DNA from: an uncultured Bacilli bacterium
Lineage (GTDB): Bacteria > Bacillota_I > Bacilli_A > RF39 > UBA660
DNA length: 38,033 bases
NCBI GenBank assembly: GCA_947629475.1
Contig: CANRDV010000007.1
Coordinates: 1-38,033 of the forward strand
Direction: 5' to 3'
The notes beneath the pieces were generated by a model. The model had not been told where the DNA came from and did no database searches. It worked only from the letters and a program-made list of their open reading frames with translations. The position numbers and the translations under genes are program-made. Shown in pieces: positions 641 to 36,342 of this stretch. Each line of letters opens with the position of its first letter. Within the stretch, counting starts at the first letter, position 1.

Positions 641-672
641 AAAAAAAGTTTCATTTTTTATTTGAAACTTTT
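641..672 (-). terminator. Intrinsic terminator of the integrase operon
   Basis: On the minus strand AAAAGTTTCA and TGAAACTTTT form a 10-bp stem with a 9-base A-rich loop, followed by TTT. The 5' arm lies in the last codons of integrase and the stop codon is in the loop. The U-run is short and interrupted, so strength is uncertain. Confidence 0.6.
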
Positions 673-2472
673 AATTGGAGTAATTATAAATTCATTCCCA
701 TATTTATTTTTCCCTTCTTCTAACCAATCCCATAGATTATTAATATTAACATTTGAAACATCAAGATATCTAAATTCTGGATATTTATTATCAATATAAT
801 CCTTTATCTTTTTCATTTTTTCATTTATGGAACAATTTTCAGGAATCATATAATCTGTTAATTCTTCAATAACATCTAATTTAGTAAACTTAATTCCTGT
901 ATATAATGTTACTAACTCATCAAAACTAATCTTCCTTTCTCTATCATTATCTATTGGATTCTCACAATTATAATATTTATCAAATATTGATAATGCTTCC
1001 TTTTTCATTTCTCTATTTGAATGTGTATAAATGAATGTTGTTGATAATTGAGAATGTCCCATTAACTTTTGAACATCAGCAGGAGATAAATTAGAATTAT
1101 CATTCATTTGCATAGAACAATAACTATGCCTTAATCCATGAAAAGATACATATTTTTTTATATTATGTCGCTTCGTAAAATCTCTCCATTTACTTGAAGG
1201 AGAATCTGGGAACATAATTCCACCATTTCTTCCTAAAAATAAATTATTAGGTGCAACATAATCAATATTGCTTTTTTCGAATCTACGAATTATCCGTTCT
1301 CTAAGTTTTAAATATTCTTTAAGACAATCTGCACAAAAACTTGGAATTGGAACTTCTCTTACACTTCCCTTTGTTTTTGTTGCCTTTTCCACAATTTTTT
1401 TGTTTTGATAATCCCAAACAACTGCTCTATTTACTTTTACAACATTATTATCAAAATCAATATCTTCAACATGAAGTCCTAAAATTTCTCCTCTCCTTAA
1501 TCCTGTACAAATTGCAAGAGTAAATAAAGCTTCAGTTAAAGCATCTTCTTTTTTTAATAACTCTAATATATTTATTAATTCTTGAACATTATAAGATTTT
1601 TTTTCTACATTAGAAACACTAGGACATTTTACTTTAGTTACTGGATTGCTTTCTATATAATCCCATAAAACTGCTTTGTTAAATATTTTTCTTAAACACC
1701 TATATATACCATTAACAGTTGTAGGTGATAATTTTTTAGTATTACCATCTTTATCTTTTCTCACACAATCTCTATCTTTTAAATTATTTATAATTTTTTG
1801 AATCGTAAGTGCATCTACTTTATTTAAAGGAACATTTGCTATTTCTGGTAAAATATAATTTCTTAACTCCATTTTTCCACCAGCTATAGTTAAAGGACTT
1901 AATTCTTTTTCAGCATATTCTTTATAATAAAGTCTTACAAAATCAATAAACTTAATATTTCCTTTAAGAGCATTATTATTTTTTAAACTTAATTCAGCAA
2001 TTTTTTTATCTCTTTCCTTCCTTGCTTGAGCTAAAGTCCCAATAAAAATCGCAGAATAATAATCACCTTTTTGCCCACCATAATTTCCTTTTCTTATAAA
2101 TATTTTATATTTTTTTCCTTTTTCAATTTCATATATGTATTTATCAACTTTATCAAGTGATTCACTTTTCTTTGAACTTAGATTACTTGTATTTTTAACT
2201 TTTTTAGGTTTATCATTTTTAATTGAAAAATCATCAGGTTCTTCAGGTTCATCTGTTGTTCCAAAATATAAATCTTTCTTTTCTTCTGGATTAAGAGTTA
2301 ATCCATTTTCCTTTAATTTATCATCCCTTAATTTTATTGCATCCTCAAGTTTACCATCTATATATTCATCAAAATTAATCCTTTTATTTTCTTTTTTATC
2401 AACTTTTAGAAATTTTACTCTATATCTATTCTCTGAAATAAAATAAATATATTTTTCAACTTTAGTATTCAT
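658..2472 (-). CDS. int: Tyrosine integrase with duplicated arm-binding domain and C-terminal extension
   Basis: Site-specific recombinase expected to integrate and excise the element at the tRNA-Arg anticodon loop. The start chosen is the ATG at 2472 (MNTKVEKYIY), preceded by GGAGGGAAG; the track start 11 codons upstream lacks a site. In this numbering, residues about 5-58 and 109-161 are similar to each other (V-D/E-KYIY at the start, G-x-L-x3-A-x3-RD-x-K near the end), which suggests two AP2-like arm-binding domains. A core-binding domain follows. The catalytic set is visible: TGLRRGE (Arg about 326), a Lys in the TKTKGSVRE segment, HGLRH (His 445, Arg 448), GHS (His about 473) and Tyr about 482. 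About 120 residues follow the Tyr, much more than usual. Tn916-type integrases have about 400 residues; this one has 604. It is the last gene of its operon and overlaps nothing. Confidence 0.95.
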   Translation of the reverse strand: MNTKVEKYIYFISENRYRVKFLKVDKKENKRINFDEYIDGKLEDAIKLRDDKLKENGLTLNPEEKKDLYFGTTDEPEEPDDFSIKNDKPKKVKNTSNLSSKKSESLDKVDKYIYEIEKGKKYKIFIRKGNYGGQKGDYYSAIFIGTLAQARKERDKKIAELSLKNNNALKGNIKFIDFVRLYYKEYAEKELSPLTIAGGKMELRNYILPEIANVPLNKVDALTIQKIINNLKDRDCVRKDKDGNTKKLSPTTVNGIYRCLRKIFNKAVLWDYIESNPVTKVKCPSVSNVEKKSYNVQELINILELLKKEDALTEALFTLAICTGLRRGEILGLHVEDIDFDNNVVKVNRAVVWDYQNKKIVEKATKTKGSVREVPIPSFCADCLKEYLKLRERIIRRFEKSNIDYVAPNNLFLGRNGGIMFPDSPSSKWRDFTKRHNIKKYVSFHGLRHSYCSMQMNDNSNLSPADVQKLMGHSQLSTTFIYTHSNREMKKEALSIFDKYYNCENPIDNDRERKISFDELVTLYTGIKFTKLDVIEELTDYMIPENCSINEKMKKIKDYIDNKYPEFRYLDVSNVNINNLWDWLEEGKNKYGNEFIITPIKSFK

Positions 2473-2494
2473 ATAATTTCTTCCCTCCATAATT

Positions 2495-2833
2495 TTAAAT
2501 ATCATACTTAGTTTTTATTTTTTCCTTTTTCATTTCTCTATCTAACCATTTATCAACTTCTTCTTTACTAAACATTCGTTTATTTCCTATCAAGCAATAA
2601 GGTAATCCATCATTTTGAATTGATTTGTTTATATTATATCTAGTAAAAAATGGATAAGTTTCGATTAGTTCATCAATCGTATAAAGAATTTTAATATCAT
2701 CTTTCTCCCTTTCTTCAATGATATTCTGTTTCTTGTTATCATTTATATTAGTAGCATTAAATAAAGCTATAAAATCTTCTAGTGTCATGCCTTTAATAAA
2801 TTTAAAAATTTCTCTTTTATCATAATTATTCAT
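2495..2833 (-). CDS. xis: Excisionase-like winged-helix/MerR-type protein
   Basis: The C-terminal half reads like a helix-turn-helix_17 or excisionase domain: YTIDELIETYPFFTRYNINKSIQ, then LPYCLIGNKRMFSKEEVDKWLD, where the K-R-x-F-S-K-E-E-V-DKWL wing-and-helix ending is typical of MerR-type excisionases. The N-terminal half, about 55 residues, is charged and not recognised. The start chosen is the ATG at 2833 (MNNYDKREIF), because GAGG lies about 9 bases upstream; the track start is a GTG overlapping the previous gene. It sits directly before integrase in the same direction, the usual place for the recombination directionality factor. The excision role is inferred from domain and position. 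Confidence 0.75.
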   Translation of the reverse strand: MNNYDKREIFKFIKGMTLEDFIALFNATNINDNKKQNIIEEREKDDIKILYTIDELIETYPFFTRYNINKSIQNDGLPYCLIGNKRMFSKEEVDKWLDREMKKEKIKTKYDI

Positions 2834-4394: not shown

Positions 4395-4648
4395 TTTTTA
4401 ATTAGTATTAAACAGCTAATTGCTAGTTAGCTTCATAGGAATTTCACCTTTCTGAGGTTCTCTCAGAACTGCTCCGATTGCTTGAATCTGTCGCTAAGCA
4501 GAAGTATCATTATACCTATTACCATCTTCGCATTACTAGTAGCAACCTAGTATTTATGGTCAAGTTTAATCGACAAGCGTACTTACCAATGTGCTTACAA
4601 TAATAGGAATGTGTTTAATAACTAAATATAATCAATTTTCAAAGAACT
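4395..4648 (-). ncRNA. Candidate structured RNA leader of the excision/integration operon
   Basis: This stretch of about 250 bases has no convincing gene and is richer in GC than its neighbours. On the minus strand it can form TTCTGAG-AGAAC-CTCAGAA (7-bp stem, 4450-4468), AGCTAA/TTAGCT (4414-4432), an ACTAG/CTAGT stem and a GTAT/ATAC stem, plus short GATT/AATC and AGG/CCT pairings. It lies between the terminator of the sigma-like gene and the first small gene of the int operon. A very short ORF, MKLTSN, with an AAGG site sits inside the last stem. I cannot match it to a riboswitch or intron class that I know. Confidence 0.5.
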
Positions 4649-5214: not shown

Positions 5215-5255
5215 TCCTCCTATCAATTTTTTTTAAATTCAAAATTGATAGGTAG
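5215..5255 (-). promoter_or_regulatory. Hairpin masking the SD of the sigma-like gene
   Basis: On the minus strand CCTATCAATTTT and AAAATTGATAGG (5219-5230 and 5241-5252) form a 12-bp stem with a 10-base loop. The 3' arm runs directly into AGG of the SD, and CCT before the 5' arm can pair with it across one bulged A, so AGGAGG would be fully covered. The stop codon of the leader ORF (5239-5241) lies at the edge of the loop, so a ribosome finishing that ORF would open the stem. Confidence 0.7.
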
Positions 5256-5418
5256 GTGGAGAACGTATCCTTATAACATTAAAAAAAGAGCCGTCTACAC
5301 ATTTAAAAAAAGTGTAAACGACTCTAAACAACTTTAAATTTGTTTTATCATCTGCGATTGCAATATCCAAAGTTTTCCTTAAATTGAAATTACTACTACA
5401 ACTTATAAAATTCTGCAT
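5239..5418 (-). CDS. 59-codon leader ORF before the sigma-like gene
   Basis: One codon too short for the track. The ATG at 5418 has GTGAGG 5 bases upstream. The frame reads MQNFISCSSNFNLRKTLDIAIADD and continues through the terminator-like hairpin at 5281-5325 to a TGA in the loop of the SD-masking hairpin. The peptide has no recognisable domain, and the second half reflects the hairpin sequence. It is best explained as a regulatory leader whose translation affects both hairpins, though a decayed gene fragment is possible. Confidence 0.5.
   Translation of the reverse strand: MQNFISCSSNFNLRKTLDIAIADDKTNLKLFRVVYTFFKCVDGSFFNVIRIRSPPTYQF
5281..5325 (-). terminator. Terminator or attenuator upstream of the sigma-like gene
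   Basis: On the minus strand AGAGTCGTTTACAC pairs with GTGTAGACGGCTCT over 14 positions (two U-G pairs), with an 11-base loop and a following run of seven T. The G-U pairs exist only on the minus strand, so that is the working direction. It lies inside the leader ORF, which makes it a candidate translation-sensitive attenuator. Confidence 0.75.
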
Positions 5419-5494
5419 AATAACCTCACTACGGCAAGCGAATGTGAACTTATTATTACTAACTACTCCCTTACTACTCCTATTTTTTTTGTAC

Positions 5495-5500
5495 TATTAT
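5495..5500 (-). promoter_or_regulatory. Probable -10 box for the leader/sigma-like transcript
   Basis: TATAAT on the minus strand, about 77 bases upstream of the leader ORF start. The -35 position 17 bases further up reads TTAAAA, a poor match. Downstream on the transcript AGTAGT occurs twice near 5466-5481. No other feature was found in this part of the 5419-5580 gap. Confidence 0.4.
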
Positions 5501-5584
5501 AAAGCGATATCCTTTCATTTTAAAATTCAATTCAACTGCCTTACTATACAATTAAAATATAATTCAAACTTTTATATTAATAAA

Positions 5585-5643
5585 GGGCTAGGTTTTCCCG
5601 TTCTCTATAATGACAAATTATAGTTTTCGGTATTTTCTAGCCC
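5585..5643 (-). other. Nested hairpin, terminator or small structured RNA
   Basis: On the minus strand three stems are nested: GGGCTAG/CTAGCCC, CCG/CGG and CTATAAT/ATTATAG with a 5-base loop. The A-rich internal loops between them are nearly symmetric. TTTATTAATAT follows, which is a weak U-tract. It lies 29 bases after the 52-aa ORF, so termination of that transcript is the simplest reading, but the regular internal loops look more like a protein-binding RNA. Confidence 0.5.
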
Positions 5644-5671
5644 ATTTTATTTATTGATTTTAAACTAACAA

Positions 5672-5830
5672 TTAAAAGAATTCTTTAACTAAATTTTTAT
5701 CAACATCAAATATAATCACAGAATTAATTATAATAGTTACTTTTTTATTTTTTTTAACTAAAATAACTGATTTAGCTTTTATTTCAAAAATTTCTGTGAA
5801 TTTATCTAATTGTTCTTGATTCAACCTCAT
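5672..5830 (-). CDS. Hypothetical 52-aa protein
   Basis: Below the track cut-off. The ATG at 5828-5830 has GGGAG 6 bases upstream and the frame reads MRLNQEQLDKFTEIFEIKAK, then SVILVKKNKKVTIIINSVIIFDV, then DKNLVKEFF. The predicted layout is a helix, two strongly hydrophobic strands joined by a Lys-rich turn, and a short helix. It has a clear -10 box and a three-copy operator-like repeat, so it is very likely expressed. I do not recognise it. A small DNA-binding or sensor-type regulator is a guess based on context. Confidence 0.6.
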   Translation of the reverse strand: MRLNQEQLDKFTEIFEIKAKSVILVKKNKKVTIIINSVIIFDVDKNLVKEFF

Positions 5831-33731: not shown

Positions 33732-33808
33732 TGGCGTCCTTGAGAGGACTTGAACCTCCGACATTCCCTTTAGGAGAGGGATACTCTTTCCAACTGAGTT
33801 ACAAGGAC
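33732..33808 (-). tRNA. trnR: tRNA-Arg(CCU), element-encoded and complete
   Basis: The 77-nt gene folds into a full cloverleaf: acceptor GTCCTTG/CAAGGAC, D-stem ACTC/GAGT, anticodon stem TCCCT/AGGGA, loop CTCCTAA with anticodon CCT, variable loop ATGTC, T-arm GGAGG-TTCAAGT-CCTCT (one G-U), discriminator G and encoded CCA. T8, A14, G15-C48, G18G19, A20 (arginine identity) and T33 are all present. It reads AGG. It lies inside the element, 170 bp from the right core, with its own promoter-like region and terminator. It differs in most stems from the split host tRNA-Arg(CCU), so it is not a copy produced by insertion. It should replace the function of the broken host gene. Confidence 0.97.
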
Positions 33809-34497: not shown

Positions 34498-34821
34498 TTA
34501 ATTAAATACATCATTAAAGTATTTATTAATTTTATTTTCAAAGACTATAAGCATATTATTAACTTCATTTAAGTAATTATTATATTCTATATATAAAGGA
34601 TTATTATTTAATTCTTGAGTTAATTTATCTAATTCTTTTTCAAGTTTTAAATCTTTAGTTTTAACTAATAATTTTTGAGTTTGTTTTATTTTATTAATTA
34701 ATTCTTTTAACTTTATATCTTTATCTAATAATTCTTTTGTTTTTAAATATCCTTTAAAGTCAGGTGTATTTTTAATATATTCTATAATCTCTGATACTTT
34801 ATCTAATATTTCTTTATTCAA
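34498..34821 (-). CDS. YlbF/YmcA-family protein
   Basis: A 107-aa all-helical protein with the YlbF/YmcA pattern: an N-terminal helix ending in TPDFKGYLKTKELLDKD, then the long helices LKELINKIKQTQKLLV and LDKLTQELNNNPLYIEYNNYLNEVNNML. In Bacillus, YmcA (RicA) follows miaB and works in an RNase Y-related complex; the same order is seen here. The start is TTG, overlapping the end of miaB by 8 bases. Confidence 0.8.
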   Translation of the reverse strand: MNKEILDKVSEIIEYIKNTPDFKGYLKTKELLDKDIKLKELINKIKQTQKLLVKTKDLKLEKELDKLTQELNNNPLYIEYNNYLNEVNNMLIVFENKINKYFNDVFN

Positions 34822-36223
34822 CTATCTCACCATCTAAACTAAAACTTTTAGCATCAAGTATTTTAACTTTAACTAACTTGCCAATTGCATCTTTCTTACC
34901 TTTAAAGTTTACTAATTTGTTAGTTTCAGTATAACCAAATAACATTCCTTCTTTAGTACTATATCCTTCACATAAAACAAGATAAGTATTACCTACCATT
35001 TTTAAGTTTGATTCTTTAGAATATTTATTGACTAATTCATTTAACTTATATAATCTTTGTTCTTTTTCTTCTAAAGATACTTTATCATCAAGCTTACTTG
35101 CTGGGGTATTTTCTCTAGGTGAATAAATGAAGGTAAATGCACTATCATACTTACAGTAATTAACAAGGTCTAGGGTATCATTAAAATCTTCTTCGTTTTC
35201 TCCAGGAAAACCTACAATGATATCTGTTGTAATACTTATATTTGGAATACTTCTTAATTTATCATATAATTCTTTATATGACTCTCTTGTATAGCGACGT
35301 CCCATTAATTTTAAAATACGATTACTTCCTGATTGAACTGGTAAATGAACAAAGTTTAAAATATTATCATAGTTTTTAATAACTTCAATTAGCTTTTCTG
35401 AAAAATCCCAAGGATGACTTGTTAAAAACCTAATTCTTGGAATATTAGTTTTTGCAACATCAACTAATAAATCAGCAAGTTCATAGTCATCATATAAGTC
35501 TTTACCATAAGCGTTAACGTTTTGTCCAAGTAATGTTACTTCTTGATAACCATCTAAAACTAATTCTTTAACTTCTCTAATTATATCTTCTTTATGTCTA
35601 CTTCTTTGTTTTCCTCTTGTATAGGGAACAATACAATAAGTACAGAATTTATCACATCCATAGATGATATTTACATAAGCCTTATATTTACTAACTCTAG
35701 TAACTGGCATATTTTCAACAATATCACCTTCCATACTATAAACTTCAACGTTTAACTTAGAATCTTTAAAACTATTAGCAAGTAATTTGGGTAAATCATC
35801 TAAGTTATGAGTACCAAAGACAAAGTTTACAAATTTATATTTCTTTAAGATTTCTTCAACTACTCCTACTTCTTGAGCCATACAACCACAAAGAGCTACA
35901 ATTAAATCTTTCTTTTCAGCTTTTAAGTGTTTAATTCTTCCAAGCATCCCAAATGCTTTATTATGAGCATTTTCTCTAATTGAACAAGTATTAAGTAAGA
36001 TAACATCAGCGTCACGCATATCTAAAGTTTCTTTAAAACTCATTTTATCAAGCATTCCTTTAATATTCTCACTATCATGTTCATTCATTTGACAACCATA
36101 GGTTTTTAAATAATATTTTTTATTTAAACCTAATTTAGAATAGTTAGAATCCATTTTAAAATCACGAACTAAAACTTCTTCATGACTTCTTCTTCTCGCT
36201 TTTTCATAATTTGGTATTTGCAT
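34814..36223 (-). CDS. miaB: tRNA-2-methylthio-N6-dimethylallyladenosine synthase MiaB
   Basis: 469 aa from the ATG at 36223 (MQIPNYEKARRRS); the track start is 6 codons earlier. The N-terminal UPF0004 domain has three Cys ligands (YGCQMNEHDSE, LLNTCSIRENA, LCGCMAQE). The radical SAM cluster motif is GCDKFCTYCIVPYTRGKQRSR. VTLLGQNVNAYG and GFPGENEEDF follow, with a C-terminal TRAM domain. It adds the methylthio group to i6A37 in tRNAs that read UNN codons. A standard chromosomal gene, it marks the right flank of the element. Confidence 0.97.
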   Translation of the reverse strand: MQIPNYEKARRRSHEEVLVRDFKMDSNYSKLGLNKKYYLKTYGCQMNEHDSENIKGMLDKMSFKETLDMRDADVILLNTCSIRENAHNKAFGMLGRIKHLKAEKKDLIVALCGCMAQEVGVVEEILKKYKFVNFVFGTHNLDDLPKLLANSFKDSKLNVEVYSMEGDIVENMPVTRVSKYKAYVNIIYGCDKFCTYCIVPYTRGKQRSRHKEDIIREVKELVLDGYQEVTLLGQNVNAYGKDLYDDYELADLLVDVAKTNIPRIRFLTSHPWDFSEKLIEVIKNYDNILNFVHLPVQSGSNRILKLMGRRYTRESYKELYDKLRSIPNISITTDIIVGFPGENEEDFNDTLDLVNYCKYDSAFTFIYSPRENTPASKLDDKVSLEEKEQRLYKLNELVNKYSKESNLKMVGNTYLVLCEGYSTKEGMLFGYTETNKLVNFKGKKDAIGKLVKVKILDAKSFSLDGEIVE

Positions 36224-36342
36224 ATACATCACCCATTTCACATGACTAATAATATATCACAAATAAGATAATTTTTCAATTACTTTTTCAAAATGATATG
36301 ATAACATTTTTTCACAAGTTTTGATTATTTTTTTAGAAACTT

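Follow-up and report, generated by a model that had tools for sequence, protein, structure and literature searches.

The locus considered here raises the question of what is achieved by a short open reading frame (ORF) which runs into the ribosome-binding region of a sigma-70 region 4-like regulator gene on a bacterial conjugative element. The window, that is the whole stretch of DNA analysed, is the entire 38,033-base contig CANRDV010000007.1 from a 1.72-Mb genome of the class Bacilli, and it is mostly a conjugative element. In our view the ORF is, with a probability of roughly 0.77, the leader of a translation attenuator that relies on an arrest peptide of the RAPP-like kind, in which a ribosome stalled at the motif Arg-Ser-Pro-Pro (RSPP) would expose the masked Shine-Dalgarno (SD) sequence of the regulator gene. 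A sequence-only reading of the same DNA had proposed translation-dependent control in two layers, in which passage of the ribosome to a stop codon in the loop of the masking hairpin opened the SD. The comparisons reported below support the two-layer control well but place the device, in all likelihood, at the in-frame RSPP before the hairpin and not in passage to the loop stop; that motif, which had gone unnoticed, is a key part of the leader.

In transcription order, the region before the sigma-like gene consists of the leader start (5418), a terminator-like hairpin, the RSPP codons, the SD-masking hairpin and the SD (Table 1). The leader opens with ATG (5418-5416), is preceded by its own GAGG and closes with TGA (5241-5239) at the 5' edge of the loop of the SD hairpin. 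The terminator-like stem within it (5325-5312 / 5300-5287, the pairs including G-U; T tail 5287-5281) scores -19.9 kcal/mol in a scan with widened loop, whereas a simple terminator scanner with a loop limit of 8 misses it. The peptide ends in IRIRSPPTYQF, so that RSPP lies four residues from its end, and this is the sole Arg-x-Pro-Pro (RxPP) among window ORFs of at least 40 amino acids (aa) with an ATG start; the predicted P-site and A-site codons are CCA (5259-5257) and CCT (5256-5254). The arms of the SD hairpin (5252-5241 / 5230-5219) are perfectly paired and take in part of the AGGAGG, and the predicted folding energy of the 321-nucleotide (nt) leader is -76.4 kcal/mol, where shuffles give -54.2 +/- 4.2 (z = -5.3). 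The leader ORF with its SD, the 14-pair terminator with seven T residues and the 12-bp hairpin were thus all found as the sequence-only reading had described them.

Relatives of the sigma-like gene were drawn from the genome's own family and from named genomes of Bacilli, Erysipelotrichaceae, Clostridia and Oscillospiraceae (80 loci), and the motif was counted in 82 loci, 63 of which were left once near-duplicates had been removed. Visual and scripted inspection of the first 12 upstream regions showed R-[S/D/A]-P-P in every one, in a frame directly before an SD hairpin. With a regular expression limited to certain residues, an RxPP-type motif was found in frame 43-67 nt before the sigma start in 63/63 loci: RSPP in 38, RGPP in 13, RDPP and RAPP in four each, and RPPP, KSPP, HGPP and HSPP once each, the second residue thus being S in 40, G in 14, D in 4, A in 4 and P in 1. 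As that expression admitted certain residues only, a fairer figure is the 62/63 obtained when the longest frame entering the hairpin was picked blind to the motif. The strict form R[SGAD]PP is present in 59 of the 63 and in 0.1% of dinucleotide shuffles of the corresponding stretches. Grouped by identity, the sigma proteins give 58 clusters at the 80% level and 20 at 60%, and the strict motif is kept throughout 54 and 18 of these, respectively. A held-out set, including four IMG/VR contigs, had the motif in 12/12, nine of which were new and three (L010, L012 and L014) already inspected earlier. Around the core, Cys precedes Arg in 42/63 loci and R or K stands before that in 31/63, the remainder being variable. 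For comparison, the regions before 305 further ORFs of these loci gave two cases of the motif, overlapping in one place. Avoidance of RxPP in host proteins was looked at in ORFs of at least 150 aa from the related loci and the window, where four RxPP in 103,190 aa are too small a number to show avoidance or its absence.

The layout also reaches into distant company. In genomes of an Oscillospirales-type order, the genes of sigma proteins which are only about 30% identical, or of a shorter 142-aa type, keep CRSPP and the hairpin; beyond this set, more distant sigma proteins lack this combination. The leader region matched nothing in nucleotide searches against plasmids and phages, and protein searches for further relatives returned only distant sigma genes. 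Loss of the frame or of the hairpins in related elements would speak against leader control; the frame and both hairpins are kept.

Selection acts on the peptide, since the codon families of Arg (AGR in 38 loci, CGN in 22) and Ser (AGY in 31, TCN in 9) vary freely, as do the third bases of both Pro codons (1.55 and 1.31 bits), the first two bases of which are invariant. Upstream of the motif its own frame stays open for 35 codons or more in 82.5% of loci, the other two frames in 0.8%, and where the leaders of close relatives differ by gaps, these mostly add up to multiples of three. Conservation of the N-terminal part is otherwise poor, which would be expected if it mattered mainly that it is translated. 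The SD is paired in 63/63 loci, compensatory double changes occur at 9/10 consensus pairs of its hairpin, and the 5' arm begins 0-11 nt past the first base of the first Pro codon, which itself lies 37-61 nt from the sigma start. A ribosome with that codon in its P site would, by the textbook footprint, reach about 15 nt downstream and cover 4-15 nt of the 5' arm in the relatives (median 11). A terminator-like hairpin precedes the motif in 49/62 loci, where 0.1 would be expected. Sequence comparison thus identifies a leader bearing the marks of translation, with a peptide-selected RxPP, a covarying SD hairpin at a fixed distance from it and a predicted terminator inside the ORF.

From these elements a sequence of events can be proposed. 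A ribosome following close behind the RNA polymerase would melt the terminator inside the leader ORF, so that the polymerase reads on. The leader ribosome would then move onto the SD hairpin's 5' arm and arrest there, at RSP|P, where by its geometry it would cover some 8-9 nt of the 12-nt arm and free the AGGAGG; the spacing of 37-61 nt would leave room for a second ribosome to initiate the sigma-like gene. The sigma-like protein would presumably go on to drive genes of the element, with a possible role in excision or transfer. The arrest may be constitutive, in which case leader initiation and the terminator would be the gates, or it may be modulated by a signal.

The case for arrest draws on what is known of the motif. 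R-[S/G/A/D]-P-P is the core of the RAPP-like ribosome-arrest peptides (PMC12992588, PMC10951233). In mutants of ApdA the Arg is irreplaceable, while the second position accepts Ala or Gly and, with partial effect, Ser, Asp or Pro; RSPP and HGPP turned up as arrest motifs in random screens (PMC12992588). The second residues found here, S, G, D, A and P, are all among those with which ApdA mutants still arrest, fully or in part (PMC12992588). Several points weigh on the other side. The commonest form in the leaders, RSPP, is only partly active in ApdA and ApdP and needs supporting upstream residues there (PMC7897499; PMC12992588), and the N-terminal parts of the leaders are poorly conserved; the N-terminal localization signal or transmembrane segment that RAPP-type peptides mostly have, but need not have, is missing from them; about 20% of loci had no terminator in the scan; and in L015, L082 and a few more the frame is short or interrupted, with a stop in the sigma gene of L015 as well. 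The weaker activity of RSPP in ApdA and ApdP would, on the other hand, fit a tunable pause.

What might tune such a pause leads to the best placed of the other explanations, namely that the arrest senses translation capacity, being prolonged by shortage of Pro-Pro helpers (EF-P, ABC-F), by shortage of Pro-tRNA or by peptidyl-transferase antibiotics, so that the element would be switched on under stress. The family is mostly of the weaker RSPP form, which leaves room for tuning, and EF-P is encoded in the host genome; RAPP-type arrest is, however, refractory to EF-P (PMC12992588). We regard this as a tentative proposal with the odds somewhat against it, and it is a refinement of the arrest attenuator and not its opposite. 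The suggestion of the sequence-only reading that antibiotics, starvation or shortage of a tRNA could trigger excision is speculation.

A simpler account is plain translational coupling, in which a ribosome reaching the loop stop opens the hairpin and RSPP has no arrest function. The TGA of the window does stand at the loop edge, and a translating ribosome would open both hairpins. The sequence-only reading had placed the stop exactly in the loop, and this holds for the window but not for the relatives, in which the place of the stop, counted from the sigma start, ranges from -46 to beyond +58 while RxPP keeps its position at the hairpin in 63/63. As its position is not fixed, the stop codon is not the device; coupling also assigns no role to the peptide-level constraint on R-x-P-P, and we consider it unlikely.

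It is far less probable still that CC-N-CC is kept as an anti-SD RNA element instead of as a pair of Pro codons. A CCNCC beside an SD-masking hairpin does look like an anti-SD, and some predicted folds pair a few of its bases with the SD. Its middle base is T in only 20/63 loci, however, so it is not tuned to GGAGG, and the main 5' arm of the hairpin lies downstream of it; left unexplained would be an Arg and a small residue written in several codon families, and the frame that stays open. Least probable of all is amino-acid or tRNA attenuation of the trp/his kind, in which the position of a ribosome on control codons selects a terminator or an antiterminator: the leader ORF does have an internal terminator, but its 59 codons hold no run for a single amino acid, which gives no suggestion of a tRNA sensor, the N-terminal codons are not conserved and no conserved antiterminator was found.

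Also considered was a monitor of membrane insertion in the manner of SecM or ApdA, which is disfavoured for lack of a localization signal: the maximum 19-residue hydropathy of the window leader is 1.1, and a hydrophobic stretch far enough upstream was found in 2/50 leaders.

The start of the leader is structured in many relatives. A 5' domain was found there with a median z of -2.9 (31/44 below -2), its outer helix (GTAGTATTT / AAATACTAC) being significant in 14, with an inner hairpin over the leader SD; sequence-based alignment of this domain gave no consensus structure, and in the window it is weak (z about 0). In L032, L043, L045, L048, L051, L071 and others, a long helix joins the 5' untranslated region (GTAGTATTT or GCAGTATT) to codons 4-9 of the leader; enclosed by it is a hairpin that spans the SD and start of the leader itself (GGCATTG...GGAG...TGCCTATG). 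A further, third layer of control, or a ligand- or protein-binding domain, is possible. With this included, we think it probable, with rather less assurance than for the attenuator itself, that RxPP arrest peptides, most of them with CRSPP, form a large and so far undescribed family which gates the sigma-like regulator in conjugative elements across gut Bacillota. Antitermination that depends on translation would there be joined with an SD opened by arrest and, in many relatives, with structure at the leader start.

A transcription start downstream of 5281 would have been at odds with control by the terminator; the candidate promoter, a consensus match, lies upstream of the leader. Its block is conserved in the closest relative, and the regional count of such matches is not above that of shuffles. 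Between this promoter and a 52-aa ORF further upstream (5672-5830, reverse strand) there is a hairpin (GGGCTAG...CTAGCCC; 5570-5650, reverse strand) which has a CTATAAT/ATTATAG helix inside it. The 52-aa ORF matches no family and is conserved in the closest relative; it is likely to be a genuine small gene, because the changes there are mostly synonymous.

The sigma-like gene passes the gathering cut-off of Pfam Sigma70_r4 and matches TIGR02937 below cut-off (2e-8). From its place upstream of xis/int, and by analogy with Orf7 of Tn916, it may be the switch for excision. A pemK RNA follows it and was found in 15/16 related loci too, a constant neighbour of the sigma module, and a PemK-like gene follows in 52/80 loci; the RNA may be regulated jointly with, or by, the sigma-like protein. 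No Rfam match above gathering score covers the leader, the window giving the pemK RNA and one tRNA only, and a search of 16 related loci returned the pemK RNA and no known leader RNA. The element carries, besides its integrase, a VirB4 (CD1110 family), a VirD4 (CD1115 family) and a MobA/VirD2-type relaxase. A tRNA gene and the host miaB flank the end opposite the integrase, which suggests the tRNA region as a possible element boundary.

Table 1. Coordinates of the leader, the sigma-like gene and other features of the window.
Feature	Position	Strand	Remarks
Integrase	658-2505		conjugative element of window
pemK RNA (RF02913)	4433..4513	-	about 200 nt downstream of sigma-like gene
Sigma-70 region 4-like regulator, 159 aa	4732..5211	-	Pfam Sigma70_r4 1.4e-5
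SD AGGAGG of sigma-like gene	5216..5221	-
SD-masking hairpin of sigma-like gene	5219..5252	-	12 bp, 10-nt loop
Leader ORF, 59 aa (59 codons)	5239..5418	-	MQNFISCSSNFNLRKTLDIAIADDKTNLKLFRVVYTFFKCVDGSFFNVIRIRSPPTYQF, then stop; frame kept in relatives
Putative RxPP (RAPP-like) arrest motif	5254..5265	-	Arg-Ser-Pro-Pro, CGT TCT CCA CCT
Intrinsic-terminator-like hairpin within leader ORF	5281..5325	-	14 pairs, 11-nt loop, T7 tail
Leader SD GAGG	5424..5427	-	predicted mostly paired, mean unpaired probability 0.17
Candidate promoter TTTAAA-17-TATAAT	5496..5524	-	upstream of leader; consensus match only
tRNA gene	33735-33808	-	near window end opposite integrase
Host miaB	34814-36241	-	with tRNA flanks element end opposite integrase

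The regulatory leader is real and conserved and, apparently, undescribed. We found no report of an arrest peptide controlling a conjugative element in the open-access literature, which leaves many journals uncovered; as far as could be found, this would be the first arrest-peptide switch assigned to such an element. If the RxPP-family reading is true, expression of the element would hinge on the behaviour of the ribosome at a Pro-Pro bond. The layout recurs in dozens of related gut-bacterial elements, in which the speed of translation may help to set when they switch on, and the R-[S/G/D/A/P]-P-P variants amount to a natural mutational series of the arrest motif and offer a handle on what switches the elements on.

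Several known systems resemble the leader or its element. The likeness to Tn1549-type integrative and conjugative elements rests on the CD1110 VirB4 and CD1115 VirD4 transfer proteins, which the window element has. Attenuation at orf12-tet(M) of Tn916 shares leader control within a conjugative element, but orf12 acts before tet(M). The orf7 leader of Tn916 is alike in its SD hairpin and in a frame that stays open across a terminator; it differs in having TNPP (L148-L150) or TNRP (L151, L152) instead of RxPP and an ATG leader in another frame, so that the motif rules Tn916 out as a member of the family. The motif is likewise absent from the relatives on an Enterococcus faecalis tet(O) plasmid and in Streptococcus suis. 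In L147 (pCF10/Tn925), upstream of orf7 (42854 onward, reverse strand), a helix lies over the ATG leader, a 23-aa ORF in one frame, while a second frame is open through the terminator to TNPP beside an SD hairpin. Between these frames stands an A7 run (a frameshift, or decay).

In its proposed working the leader resembles the erm and cat translation attenuators, with which it shares a leader ORF and an SD-masking hairpin, the 5' arm of which a stalled ribosome would cover. Their stalls need a drug and the downstream gene confers resistance, whereas here the motif is of the drug-independent RxPP class, the gene is sigma-70 region 4-like and a terminator has been added upstream. A further known group is that of the RAPP-like peptides (ApdA, ApdP, ApcA; SecM with RAGP; CruR), with which the leaders share a small upstream open reading frame (uORF), a C-terminal R-[A/G/S/D]-P-P and a masked SD thereafter. 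A published survey of annotated ORFs for RAPP and RGPP found such uORFs absent in many Bacillota (PMC12992588). The leaders described here are in Bacillota, and their predicted membership in the RAPP-like class has the support of the core motif. They would widen RAPP-like arrest, which has been studied chiefly in protein export and metal genes, to take in mobile elements of this phylum and the RSPP form. They are mostly RSPP instead of RAPP or RGPP and have no localization signal; within the element, RxPP arrest and SD masking would be combined with a terminator inside the ORF itself, and the gene that follows is not a sec, yidC or metal gene but the sigma-like regulator of a conjugative element.
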